Positions 43,694 through 48,094 of a DNA stretch of 64,000 bases are shown in pieces; the first letter of the stretch is position 1; the number at the start of each line of letters is the position of its first letter. This DNA is from Arcobacter sp. (GTDB lineage Bacteria; Campylobacterota; Campylobacteria; Campylobacterales; Arcobacteraceae). The notes beneath the pieces are model-generated. The model saw nothing but the letters and a program-made list of their open reading frames with translations. It ran no database searches and was not told the origin of the DNA. The translations under genes and the position numbers were made by a program. The stretch is from assembly GCA_002869535.1 (NCBI GenBank), contig PKUK01000002.1, positions 1 to 64,000 on the forward strand, given 5' to 3'.

Positions 43694-45057
43694 TTATGCC
43701 TCCATAACCCAAGTATCTTTAAATCCACCACCTTGAGATGAATTAACTAAATAATTACCAGCTTCCATTGCATATCTTGTCAATCCACACTGCCAAACAG
43801 TTGGTTCTTCATCCATTACAACATAAGCTCTAAAGTCAGCCTTTCTTGGAACTATCTCATTGTTTAAATAACACTCTTCATCATAGAACTCTATTAACTC
43901 TTGAGCAATAAATCTTCTTGGATTTGCAGTTATAATTGTTTTTAAATCATCAAGTTGGATTTTAGACATAGAGTGTCCAAACATTACACCATAACCACCA
44001 GCTTCTGCTACATCTTTAATAACAAGTTTTTCAATGTTTTCAAAAATATATTTTTTGTCTTTTTCAAAATATGGTAAATACGTAGGTGCATTACTTAATA
44101 TTGGTTCTTCACCTAAATAGTATTTAATCATCTTAGGAACAAAATAATATATACCTTTATCATCGGCAACTCCATTTCCAGGGGCATTCATAATTGCTAC
44201 ATTTCCAGCTAAATAAGCTTCCATGATTCCTGGAACTCCAATCAAACTATCTTTATTGAAAAATTTTGGATCTAAAAACTCATCATCAAGTCGTCTATAA
44301 ACAGCCCCTACTCTTATTTTTTGTCCATCATAGTTCTTAAAGTATAGAACTTTATTTTGAACAACAAGTTCACTATTTCGTACAAGGTGAGCACCCATTT
44401 TTTTAGCTAAATAGGCATGTTCATAATAAGCGGAGTTAAATCTACCAGGAGTTAAAACTACATTTATTCCTCCACAATTTACATAATCCATTGATTTAGC
44501 CAAAATAGATGGATAACCTTTTATTGGTTTAATTTTAAGTTTCTCAAAAAATTCTGGATATAATTTTCTATAGGTATCTCTAATAGATAAAGGATAACTA
44601 GCTCCACTTGGAACTCTTAGATTATCTTCTAATATAACCCATTCATTACTTACGGTATCTTTTACTAAATCTATACCATTGATATGTGTTCTAATTTGTT
44701 TTGAAGGAGAAACCCCTTCTAGCTCTTTTAAATACCCCTTTGCTTGGTAAATAAACTCTTCGGGGATTACTTTATCTTTTAGAATTTTTTGTCAGTGTAT
44801 AAGTCTTCTAAAAAGAGATTTAATGCTTTTATTCTTTGGCTCAAACCTCTATCCATCTTATCAAACTCTTTTGTGTCGATAATTCTAGGGATTACATCAA
44901 AAGGAAGTGATCTCTCAATAAAATTTCCATCTTTGTATAGGTTAAAATTTACTGCAAATTTGTCCATATATTTTTTGAATTCATCAATTTTTTGCCTATC
45001 TTGGTTTGAAAATATCTCCCAAAATATTTCTGTTGCACTATTTTTACTATCTAGCAA
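43694..45057 (-). pseudogene. Second circularly permuted ATP-grasp gene, broken by a one-base frameshift
   Basis: Translation starts at a TTG (45057) with a perfect AGGAGG 6 bases upstream and reads 92 codons to LEDLYTDKKF-stop (44779). The protein continues in another frame: ILKDKVIPEEFIYQAKGY, then EDNLRVPSGASYP, NCGGINVVLTPGRFNSAYYE, YRRLDDEFLDP, NAPGNGVADDK, down to 43694. The break is at six T on the plus strand (44785-44790, six A in the coding strand); seven would restore one 454-residue protein. Homopolymer slippage, a phase switch or a sequencing error could each explain it. Paralogous to residues 1-500 of the fusion at 39622-42111. Confidence 0.87.
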
Positions 45058-45187
45058 ATTACACCTCCTAGGTCTATATTAAATTTTAATACTATTAATA
45101 TAAAAAGGTTATAAATTATTTTATATTTTTATTAATTAATTGTATAAAAAATATACTATTAGAGTAATATTATTATAAAATGCATAA

Positions 45188-45221
45188 AAAAAGGGGAAGA
45201 AAGTTATTTCTTCCCCTTTTT
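45188..45221. terminator. Strong bidirectional intrinsic terminator
   Basis: AAAAAGGGGAAGAAA, loop GTTA, then the full complement ending in TTTTT: a perfect 15-bp stem with GGGG/CCCC core and A/T tracts. It lies downstream of the hsp20/small-peptide transcript (leftward). The 45058-45320 stretch contains nothing else that I can support. Confidence 0.88.
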
Positions 45222-45320
45222 ACTCAAAAAATTGTGCTTTAATTTTAAATATACTTTATACTAAAAAACCAGTGCACCTCCAAAATTTAATCATATCTTT
45301 TTATATTTCTTATCAAATCT

Positions 45321-45428
45321 TTACTGAGCAATATATAAAAATGTTGTTGCAATTGCAATCATGTAGATTGTCAATGTTATCAAATAATCTTTTCTATTCT
45401 TTTTTACTGCTACTTTTATTCTTTCCAT
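45321..45428 (-). CDS. 35-residue single-helix membrane peptide downstream of hsp20
   Basis: ATG at 45426-45428 with AAAGGG upstream, stop at 45321. A basic head (MERIKVAVKKNRKDY) followed by a hydrophobic helix (LITLTIYMIAIATTFLYIA). It starts 34 bases after the hsp20 stop and precedes the 45188 terminator, so it should be co-transcribed with hsp20. The KDYLITLTIY segment resembles KDYIILITIY in the 30-residue peptide at 46016-46108. Plus-strand open frames here are shadows without ribosome sites. Confidence 0.6.
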   Translation of the reverse strand: MERIKVAVKKNRKDYLITLTIYMIAIATTFLYIAQ

Positions 45429-45462
45429 TTATTCCCTTTAATAAAGAAGGAATAAATCCTTC

Positions 45463-45876
45463 TTATTTAATCTCTACTATCTTTTTATGTTTTTCTTCAC
45501 TAAGTTTTGGAACAACTACTTCTAAAACTCCATTATCTCCACTTGCTTCAATATTCTCCACATCTGCATTTTCAGGAAGATTAAAACTTCTAGAGAATTT
45601 ACCAAATGATGTTTCTATTTTATAATAATCATCTTCCTTAATCTCTTCTTTTGTTTTTCTTTCCCCTGAGATTGTAAGAATATCTTTGTGTATATCAACT
45701 TTTATATCTTTTTTATCTACACCTGGCAAATCTACATCTATGTGATAAGCAAACTCTCCTTCCCTTGTATTAACTACAGGAACAAACCCACTTACTCCTT
45801 CATTTGAAGGGTACTCATATAAACTTTTTTCCAAGTTTCTAAATTGTTTAAAAGGGTCAAATCTTGTAACTAACAT
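45463..45876 (-). CDS. Hsp20/alpha-crystallin small heat shock protein
   Basis: 137 residues from the ATG at 45876 (AAGGAG 6 bases upstream, N-terminus LVTRFDPFKQFRNLE); the 15 further upstream codons are leader. The alpha-crystallin domain spans about 35-130, with VDLPGVDKKDIKVDIHKDILTISGER and FSRSFNLPENADVENIEAS; the C-terminal tail has the partial I-x-I-like VEIK. An ATP-independent holdase. Transcribed from 45931-45959 under CIRCE control. The 5' UTR has a CTTGATA/TATCAAG hairpin (45902-45922). Confidence 0.93.
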   Translation of the reverse strand: MLVTRFDPFKQFRNLEKSLYEYPSNEGVSGFVPVVNTREGEFAYHIDVDLPGVDKKDIKVDIHKDILTISGERKTKEEIKEDDYYKIETSFGKFSRSFNLPENADVENIEASGDNGVLEVVVPKLSEEKHKKIVEIK

Positions 45877-45930
45877 ATCAAACTCCTTAAAAATAATATT
45901 TCTTGATAACTTTTGTATCAAGTTAATGGA

Positions 45931-45959
45931 ATAATAACATAATATTTAGCACTTGTCAA
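45931..45959 (-). promoter_or_regulatory. hsp20 promoter
   Basis: On the minus strand TTGACA (45954-45959), 17-bp spacer, TATTAT (45931-45936). The -35 hexamer lies inside the first CIRCE element, so bound HrcA would exclude RNA polymerase. Confidence 0.8.
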
Positions 45960-45972
45960 TATCTAGTGCTAA
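45946..45972. promoter_or_regulatory. CIRCE element 1 (HrcA operator)
   Basis: TTAGCACTT (45946-45954), 9-base spacer, TAGTGCTAA (45964-45972). The consensus is TTAGCACTC-N9-GAGTGCTAA; each arm differs only at its innermost base. It covers the -35 box of hsp20. Confidence 0.88.
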
Positions 45973-45977
45973 TATTT

Positions 45978-46004
45978 TTAGCAGTTATATAAATAAAGTG
46001 CTAA
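45978..46004. promoter_or_regulatory. CIRCE element 2, degenerate
   Basis: TTAGCAGTT (45978-45986), 9-base spacer, AAGTGCTAA (45996-46004): 7/9 and 8/9 matches to the CIRCE arms with the same 9-9-9 geometry. Its centre is 32 bp, about three helical turns, from that of element 1. Confidence 0.65.
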
Positions 46005-46015
46005 AGATGCTTCTT

Positions 46016-46108
46016 CTAAGTAATTACTATATAACTTGCAAATATTGTAATAGTATATATTGTGATTAAGATAATATAATCTTTCTCTTTTGTATTAATA
46101 TTATTCAT
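46016..46108 (-). CDS. 30-residue membrane peptide upstream of hsp20
   Basis: ATG at 46106-46108 with AAAGGAG 6 bases upstream, TAG at 46016-46018. A short polar head (MNNINTKEKDY) then one hydrophobic helix (IILITIYTITIFASYIVIT). It aligns with the peptide at 45321-45428 over KDY-x-I-x-x-TIY-x-I-x-I. It ends 12 bases before CIRCE element 2 in the direction of transcription, so it belongs to a separate upstream transcript or reads through into hsp20. No plus-strand gene competes here. Confidence 0.55.
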   Translation of the reverse strand: MNNINTKEKDYIILITIYTITIFASYIVIT

Positions 46109-46144
46109 TTTTTCTCCTTTTAGTAGGAGAAAAAATCTCCTACT
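46109..46144 (-). promoter_or_regulatory. Leader with two mutually exclusive hairpins over the ribosome binding site
   Basis: Read on the minus strand: AGTAGGAGA, TTTTT, TCTCCTACT, AAA, AGGAGA, then the ATG. TCTCCT can pair with the first AGGAGA (9-bp stem 46122-46130/46136-46144, leaving the Shine-Dalgarno free) or with the second AGGAGA (the Shine-Dalgarno itself), but not both. This is the layout of a translational switch or RNA thermometer. Confidence 0.4.
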
Positions 46145-46224
46145 CTTTTATAAATTTATTTGTTTTTTTGAATCTCATATGGGACTTCAAATTTTTCCTT
46201 TTTTTGTTTGCTTTTTTTAGACAT

Positions 46225-46256
46225 AAAAAAAGGGAAGAGCTAAAAGCCCTTCCCTT
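46225..46256 (-). terminator. Intrinsic terminator of typA
   Basis: On the minus strand AAGGGAAGGGC, loop TTTTA, GCTCTTCCCTT, then a T-run: one mismatch in an 11-bp stem. It lies 24 bases after the typA stop. Confidence 0.85.
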
Positions 46257-46279
46257 CGTAAAATTTATTATTTTAAATT

Positions 46280-48094
46280 TTATTCGAATTTCGTCTTTTT
46301 AGCTGTTCTTTTTCTTACTGTTGGATCAAGTTCTCTTTTTCTAACTCTTACAGACTTAGGAGTAACTTCAACTAACTCATCTTCTTCAATCCACTCTAGT
46401 GCATTTTCTAAAGACATTTGTCTTGGTGGGATTAGCTTAATAGCTTCATCAGCACCTGAAGATCTAACATTTGATTGTTGTTTCCCTTTTGTAGGGTTAA
46501 CATCTAAATCATTTCCTTTAGCATGCTCACCAATAACCATACCGTTGTATACTTTATCTTGAGGCTTAATAAACATAACCCCTCTATCTTGTAGGTTGAA
46601 AATCGAGTAACCTAAAGCTTCTCCATTTTCCATAGAAGTTAAAGCACCATATTTTCTAGACTCAACAACTCCTGAATATGCTCTAAAATCTAAAAATGAG
46701 TGATTCATAACACCCTCACCTTTTGTTTCAGTTAAAAATTCAGTTCTAATACCAATCAAACCTCTTGCTGGAATTTCAAACTCTAATCTTGTAGAACCAG
46801 AACCCATTGGTACCATATTTGTCATATTTGCTTTTCTTTTTCCAAGTTTTTCAATAATTGCACCTGAAAATTCATCTGGAGTATCAATAACTAAATGCTC
46901 AAATGGCTCCATTTTAACGCCATCTTCAATTTTAGTAATAACTTCAGGTCTTCCAATACAGAACTCAAAACCTTCTCTTCTCATGTTCTCTGCTAAGATA
47001 CAAATTTGAAGTTCACCTCTTCCGTTAACTTTAAATTTACCCTCACCAATTTGCTCATAATTCATAGCAATATTAGTATTCATCTCTGCATTTAATCTCT
47101 CATCAATTTTATTTGAAGTTACATACTTACCTTCAGTTCCTGCTAATGGAGAATCATTTACTGCAAATGTTACAGACAGTGTTGGCTCTTCAATATGCAT
47201 AGGATCAAGAGGCATTGGATTTGCAGGGTCACAAAGTGAATCACCCACATCAATAGTTTCAAAACCTGCAACAGCAACGATGTCACCAGTTCCAGCTGTT
47301 TTGATATCAAATCTATCAACACCCTTAAATCCAATAAGTTTTGTAACTCTTCCTTTAATCTTTTCACCATCAGCTTTAACTAAAAGTACAGTCTCACCCA
47401 TAGAGATTGTTCCATTAAAGATTCTAGCAATACCGATTTTCCCAATAAAATTATCATAATCAAGAGTAAATACTTGAAGTTGTAAACCATTTGCATCATC
47501 ACCTTTTGGTTTTGGAACTTCTTTTAATATTGTTTGAAATAGTGGAGTTAAGTTTTCATTTGCATCTTCTAAAGCAAGTTTTGCATAACCATCTCTTGCT
47601 GCTGCATAAACTACTGGGAACTCTAATTGTTCTTCAGTTGCACCCATTTGATCAAACAGGTCAAATACTTCATCAACAACTCTATCTGGATCTCCACCTG
47701 GTTTATCAATTTTATTGATAACAACAATTGGTCTATGTCCTAGTTGTAAAGCTTTTTTCACAACAAACTTAGTTTGTGGCATAACACCCTCTTGTGCATC
47801 AACAAGTAATAAAACAGAATCAACCATTTTTAAAACCCTCTCAACTTCTCCACCAAAGTCAGCATGGCCCGGAGTGTCAATAATGTTGATTCTTACATCT
47901 TCATAATCTATTGCTGTATTTTTAGAAAGAATAGTAATCCCTCTTTCTTTTTCAATGGCATTACTATCCATAACTCTTTCATCAACTTGCGTATGCGCTG
48001 CGAAAGTTCCTGATTGCTTTAATAGCTCATCAACTAATGTTGTTTTACCGTGGTCAACGTGTGCGATAACGGCAATATTTCTGATGTCTCTCAT
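46280..48094 (-). CDS. typA: Ribosome-associated GTPase TypA/BipA
   Basis: 604 residues. GTPase motifs G1 [10 protein letters not shown] (10-19), G2 ERGITI, G3 [12 protein letters not shown]4 NKIDKP; then EF-G-like domains III and V and the BipA C-terminal domain ([37 protein letters not shown]). It acts in 50S assembly and stress and low-temperature growth. Single gene with its own terminator at 46225-46256. The 212-base gap to glsA contains no gene that I can see. Confidence 0.96.

Follow-up and report, generated by a model that had tools for sequence, protein, structure and literature searches.

Two short open reading frames (ORFs) of 30 and 35 amino acids, both missed by gene catalogues, enclose the small heat-shock gene hsp20 in the 64,000-nucleotide stretch of Arcobacter DNA analysed here (the window). 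The locus raises the question of whether these frames encode related peptides, whether both belong to the heat response of the gene between them, and what controls their translation. The initial annotation had proposed two similar membrane peptides with good ribosome sites, paired around a CIRCE-controlled gene as a membrane arm of the heat response. Both ORFs are present as described, and the motif KDY-[LI]-I-x-x-TIY-x-I-x-I recurs exactly in each, the homology being upheld by relatives. The good ribosome site (SD) was found at the upstream ORF (AAAAGGAG), whereas that of the downstream ORF is only moderate (AAAGGGA). As claimed, the downstream ORF lies between hsp20 and its terminator.

Read along the minus strand, typA is followed by a strong terminator, the 30-aa ORF, two CIRCE sites with the hsp20 promoter, hsp20, the 35-aa ORF and a strong terminator hairpin. 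We refer to the upstream-ORF type as the T class and to the downstream-ORF type as the H class. The features of the locus are as follows:

46280–48094 (−): typA/bipA, the conserved upstream neighbour of the T unit
46224–46257 (−): strong typA terminator, directly upstream of the T unit
46140–46190 (−): leader uORF MKSHMRFKKTNKFIKE, with TTG start and TAG stop inside arm 1, assigned by the uORF-at-arm-1 rule
46136–46144 (−): T-leader arm 1 AGTAGGAGA, a putative anti-anti-SD or SD mimic, forming helix 1 with 46122–46130
46122–46130 (−): T-leader arm 2 TCTCCTACT, pairing with arm 1 or with the SD
46125–46135 (−): helix 2, 5' strand TTTTTTCTCCT, from the helix 2 pairing analysis
46108–46118 (−): helix 2, 3' strand AGGAGAAAAAA, comprising the SD plus the spacer as far as the A of the start codon (ATG), from the same analysis
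46016–46108 (−): T-class membrane peptide, 30 aa, MNNINTKEKDYIILITIYTITIFASYIVIT
45978–46004 (−): second CIRCE, degenerate with 3 mismatches, just upstream of the main CIRCE (CIRCE search)
45946–45972 (−): CIRCE operator, 2 mismatches, overlapping the hsp20 promoter (CIRCE search)
45959–45931 (−): hsp20 promoter, TTGACA-17-TATTAT
45463–45876 (−): hsp20, 137 aa (Pfam HSP20, E = 3.5e-24)
45457–45464 (−): H-leader arm 1 AAGAAGGA, which overlaps the stop codon of hsp20
45444–45451 (−): H-leader arm 2 TCCTTCTT, likewise complementary to the SD that follows
45434–45439 (−): H-peptide SD, AAAGGG(A), moderate
45321–45428 (−): H-class membrane peptide, 35 aa, MERIKVAVKKNRKDYLITLTIYMIAIATTFLYIAQ
45186–45221 (−): terminator hairpin of the hsp20-H operon, −19.9 kcal/mol, z −4.7

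The two CIRCE sites at this locus compare with a chance expectation of 0.02, and a genome-wide search returned six CIRCE-like sites, four of them elsewhere. The closest named relatives of the window hsp20 belong to Arcobacter and Malaciobacter.

The peptide family and its neighbourhoods

Judged from their sequences, both ORFs are paralogues within one Arcobacteraceae family of single-helix peptides of 24–39 residues, which are presumably located in the inner membrane. When one of the peptides was shuffled with the compositions of its head and helix kept, only 5 of 5000 shuffles reached the observed alignment score. Family alignments of 21 and then 43 members revealed an invariant D, with Y-x-I and I present in at least 90% of members. 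Relatives of the 35-aa query were detected in all three genomes of the genus, and scanning around hsp20 in relatives recovered the same type of ORF with a good SD site. Profile matches at E ≤ 0.01, a few of them marginal, extended to 49 of 104 Arcobacteraceae genomes; when 399 genomes of the order were sampled, matches came from Arcobacteraceae only. The T-class coding sequences showed a pN/pS of 0.36 and an excess at third positions, pN being below pS in 143 of 144 pairs, which points to purifying selection; the corresponding H-class values were 0.50 and 7 of 8 pairs. The single hydrophobic helix proposed for each peptide was supported, and AlphaFold, run on the T peptide without an alignment, predicted one helix across residues 2–29 (mean pLDDT 90).

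Conservation, pN/pS and homology together rule out chance or non-coding ORFs. A known small-protein family was ruled out as well, since neither the window peptides nor any of the 43 members came near the curated cut-off of a Pfam or NCBIfam profile, and the PDB returned no significant match to the peptides. Mobile origin was rejected because no plasmid copies of the peptides were matched. A limited literature search found no study of small proteins or leaders in Arcobacter.

In the T class, whose homologues lie 3' of typA across the Arcobacteraceae, typA stands upstream on the same strand in 30 of the 30 loci inspected. Fourteen of these loci have no hsp20 nearby, and several T genomes contain no hsp20 relative at E ≤ 1e-20. 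The proposed tie of the upstream peptide to hsp20 thus did not hold, and linkage to typA takes its place. The H class is found directly 3' of hsp20 in all 15 loci, including those in which hsp20 lies away from typA, and peptide conservation beside hsp20 was in this way confirmed; many hsp20 genes have no H peptide. Direct bracketing of hsp20 by both classes was seen at two loci only, the window and L128, and in other genomes with both T and H longer stretches or other genes lie between them. The T/H pairing therefore appears to be mostly a neighbourhood effect. CIRCE is located upstream of hsp20 in most H loci. As both CIRCE sites of the window are downstream of the T ORF, the T peptide is not CIRCE-controlled there.

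Several side observations were made in these surroundings. Strongly diverged H-like peptides, MNNSEQRSSDHHITMGICIFSIVIVLFNMPH and LKTIQKRNNEYFITMTISIFCIVVALINMPH, occur 3' of hsp20 in L067 (near 1459, minus strand) and L134 (283–381, minus strand); they have the same hairpin leader and share a C-terminal NMPH. The element GCACAATTTTTTGAGT (window 45222–45237, minus strand) is positioned just before the hsp20 terminator as a single copy in its own genome. Across 104 genomes, similar elements gave 12 matches, roughly half of which lie at hsp20; they follow hsp20 in several genera (L063, L066, L070, L075, L089) with the H peptide present or absent. Further downstream, a circularly permuted ATP-grasp-like gene (43694–45060, minus strand) is interrupted by a frameshift close to an A6 run at about 44790; its relative in L147 is one intact frame, and the interruption is either a sequencing error or a real lesion.

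The leader RNAs of the two classes

Comparison of the T leaders revealed a common order of an SD, an ORF of 9–21 codons (the uORF), arm 1 ATAGGAGA, a short loop, arm 2 TCTCCTAT, a short linker, AGGAGAAAAAA and the ATG. The stop codon of the uORF touches or overlaps arm 1, and its N-terminus is often MSDDM-like. Under an explicit rule, 34 of 37 T leaders were scored as having a uORF that is preceded by an SD and ends at arm 1, compared with 1.65 expected from dinucleotide shuffles, and the remaining three have an ORF at the same place with no recognisable SD. The uORF is also kept where the directly upstream gene is no longer typA (L135, L145, L152, L155). Its C-termini vary between leaders and point to neither a specific arrest peptide nor a sensed amino acid; arrival at the stop codon, rather than a specific arrest peptide, is therefore probably what is sensed. 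The combination of arm 1, arm 2 and SD occurs once in the entire genome of the window. Among 104 family genomes it was counted 32 times, with 29 of the occurrences directly before a T peptide, while the reversed control gave 2. Rfam returned no match across the whole window, leader RNA included.

A 22-aa ORF starting from the typA terminator (46156–46224) was considered as the leader ORF and rejected, the conserved frame being the TTG frame that ends inside arm 1. No promoter was evident by eye between the typA terminator and the uORF, which makes read-through of this terminator the likely source of the T transcript.

In the T leaders, arm 2 has two alternative partners. Pairing with arm 1 gives helix 1 (8–14 bp), which leaves the SD free; pairing with the SD and spacer gives helix 2 (mostly 9–14 bp), which buries the SD and reaches the ATG. 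The two helices are mutually exclusive. For helix 1, 95% pairing was observed together with compensatory changes, a level reached by none of 500 shuffles, which ignore shared ancestry. In the variable outer part of helix 2, 115 of 133 cells are paired, and 11 of 5000 partner permutations reach this count, shared ancestry again being ignored. The helix 2 statistic was obtained by anchored permutation; the MAFFT alignment A3, in which many rows were out of register in the spacer, was not used. Coordinated changes in helix 2 include TATTTT/AAAATA, TGTTTT/AAAACA and a matched insertion in L150. Mean predicted energies for the T class were −13.1 kcal/mol for helix 1 and −13.4 kcal/mol for helix 2 (model values at 37 °C), with a balance that differs among species, and the mean predicted probability of a free SD core fell from 0.30 to 0.02 once arm 1 was blocked in folding.

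Eleven H leaders follow the same design with other arm sequences, the hsp20 stop codon being situated at arm 1. Here helix 1 dominates on average in the predictions, and the probability of a free SD dropped from 0.70 to 0.04 with arm 1 blocked in folding. Five H-class records have no comparable hairpin, and in four of these the SD lies directly at the hsp20 stop. As a hairpin that could hide the SD starts at the hsp20 stop in most H loci, co-transcription of the H peptide with hsp20 need not mean co-translation. In L073, L076, L078 and L080, which have no H peptide, a GAGGAAG..CTTCCTC hairpin is located directly at the hsp20 stop codon; given such hairpins without a peptide, the H hairpin may have another role.

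A candidate switch set by terminating ribosomes

We favour a reading, to which we assign a probability of roughly 0.6, in which a three-segment RNA switch gates the synthesis of both peptides, working as a translational attenuator under the control of terminating ribosomes, and in which the peptides act as small membrane regulators under stress. Segment 1 (the SD mimic) and segment 3 (SD and spacer) are each computed to be complementary to segment 2, and the stop of the preceding ORF falls at segment 1, this ORF being a dedicated uORF in the T class and, for the majority of H copies, hsp20. A ribosome footprint reaches about 12 nt past the A-site codon, and a ribosome at the stop of the uORF or of hsp20 would thus cover arm 1 and leave arm 2 free to bury the SD. 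A terminating ribosome on the preceding ORF would accordingly turn the peptide off, with segment 2 hiding the SD. When ribosomes do not get as far as the stop, because translation is slow or stalls or initiation fails, helix 1 would form during transcription, the SD would stay free and the peptide would be made. The sign of this putative switch, off by a terminating ribosome, would be reversed by termination-reinitiation coupling. The T unit would be fed by read-through from typA and the H unit by the CIRCE promoter. For the peptide itself, our best guess is a small membrane regulator of a partner protein in translation or proteotoxic stress, the main alternative being a type I toxin-like role.

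The view that both peptides belong to a membrane branch of the HrcA/CIRCE heat response and are produced alongside Hsp20 has its best ground in the H class, given the constant place of its peptide directly 3' of hsp20 and ahead of the terminator, the frequent CIRCE upstream, and the four loci in which the SD immediately adjoins the hsp20 stop, an arrangement like that of coupled translation. The transcript of hsp20 and the H peptide carries CIRCE in its promoter (45946–45972), and the position of the H peptide fits the heat induction with hsp20 that had been suggested for it. The promoter element is absent for the T peptide, whose linkage to typA, location upstream of CIRCE and occurrence in genomes with no detected hsp20 speak against a common heat arm, as do the many hsp20 genes lacking an H peptide, and we consider this explanation unlikely for the pair. 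A type I toxin-antitoxin-like system, in which stress would release a toxic membrane peptide from SD sequestration and an antisense RNA would counter it, following the example of aapA/isoA, would account for the length of about 30 aa, the one hydrophobic helix and the SD hidden by an adjacent anti-SD, the last being a described hallmark of type I toxin mRNAs (PMC6733600). An antisense promoter scan gave a cluster at the coding D-Y codons only and no clear conserved site, so that no positionally conserved antisense promoter is seen beyond coding constraint; the inheritance is vertical and syntenic beside typA, no plasmid copies were matched, and the conserved D-Y head is unlike a generic pore peptide. 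We hold a system of this kind to be improbable.

It would be simpler to regard the hairpin as an mRNA stabiliser, a spacer or a terminator remnant with incidental anti-SD complementarity, as the hairpins after peptide-free hsp20 genes and the average dominance of helix 1 in the H class might suggest. Such an element would require neither SD complementarity nor a uORF stop at arm 1, and in nearly all T leaders helix 2, with its coordinated changes, spans the spacer as far as the ATG over 9–14 bp, which renders this view decidedly improbable. Finally, a trans-acting RNA-binding protein such as CsrA, or an sRNA, could bind arm 1 or the SD and set the switch, with the uORF only opening the RNA. 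CsrA binds GGA motifs, and AGGA is found both in arm 1 and in the SD; these GGA motifs are, however, accounted for by SD function and complementarity, and the position of the uORF stop would be left unexplained, so that we see very little room for such a factor.

Beyond the favoured attenuator, the switch might be a general ribosome-termination sensor that reads the completion of any preceding frame, be it a variable leader or a heat-shock chaperone gene, and releases the membrane peptide when completion fails, a tentative extension that we hold to be possible, though short of an even chance. If true, such a sensor would tie translation capacity to the membrane in Arcobacteraceae.

Implications and relation to known systems

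The locus adds a small-protein family new to Pfam and NCBIfam and a leader RNA outside Rfam, both conserved across a bacterial family with emerging pathogens. The putative switch appears to read the position of a stop codon instead of an arrest peptide, and two paralogues seem to share one switch with two different leaders, one of which is the chaperone gene itself. A coupling of translation status to membrane or stress physiology, as proposed here, becomes directly testable with a few reporter mutants.

Leader-peptide translational attenuators include ermC/ermCL, the cat leaders and secM-secA. The present leaders resemble them in the short leader ORF, the mutually exclusive RNA helices and the use of the next gene's SD as output, and two features of this group, a leader ORF with its own ribosome site and a pair of exclusive helices of which one buries the SD, are present at the level of sequence and predicted pairing. 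In contrast to these systems, the RNA has three segments, the first of which carries the uORF stop, the terminating ribosome is predicted to turn the target off, no conserved arrest sequence is found, the target is a 30-aa membrane peptide, and in the H class a full gene, hsp20, would act as the leader. The peptides themselves recall small single-pass membrane regulators of the CydX, AcrZ, MgtS and KdpF type in having about 30–50 aa, a polar head, one transmembrane helix and a conserved core, a likeness of size and layout alone.

In the toiL-topAI/yjhQ system of E. coli, translation of the uORF is needed for the response to ribosome-targeting antibiotics, and stalling on the uORF, sometimes at its end, induces (PMC12121999). 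Both systems place a short, conserved uORF ahead of a stress-related gene, whereas the protein family and the RNA differ and occupancy of the uORF end is predicted to repress in our case. In the aapA/isoA system of Helicobacter, an AAAGGAG SD is masked by an upstream anti-SD in a metastable hairpin (PMC6733600). This system shares with ours the phylum Campylobacterota, a hydrophobic peptide of about 30 aa and SD masking, and the type I feature of a short hydrophobic single-helix peptide with a hidden SD is present here as modelled; the Arcobacteraceae leaders differ in having their own uORF and an anti-anti-SD arm that competes for pairing, in their conserved synteny on the chromosome, and in that no antisense element was found. 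Within the same phylum, a Ribo-seq census of Campylobacter jejuni has demonstrated that leader peptides are translated and detectable (PMC11955535).
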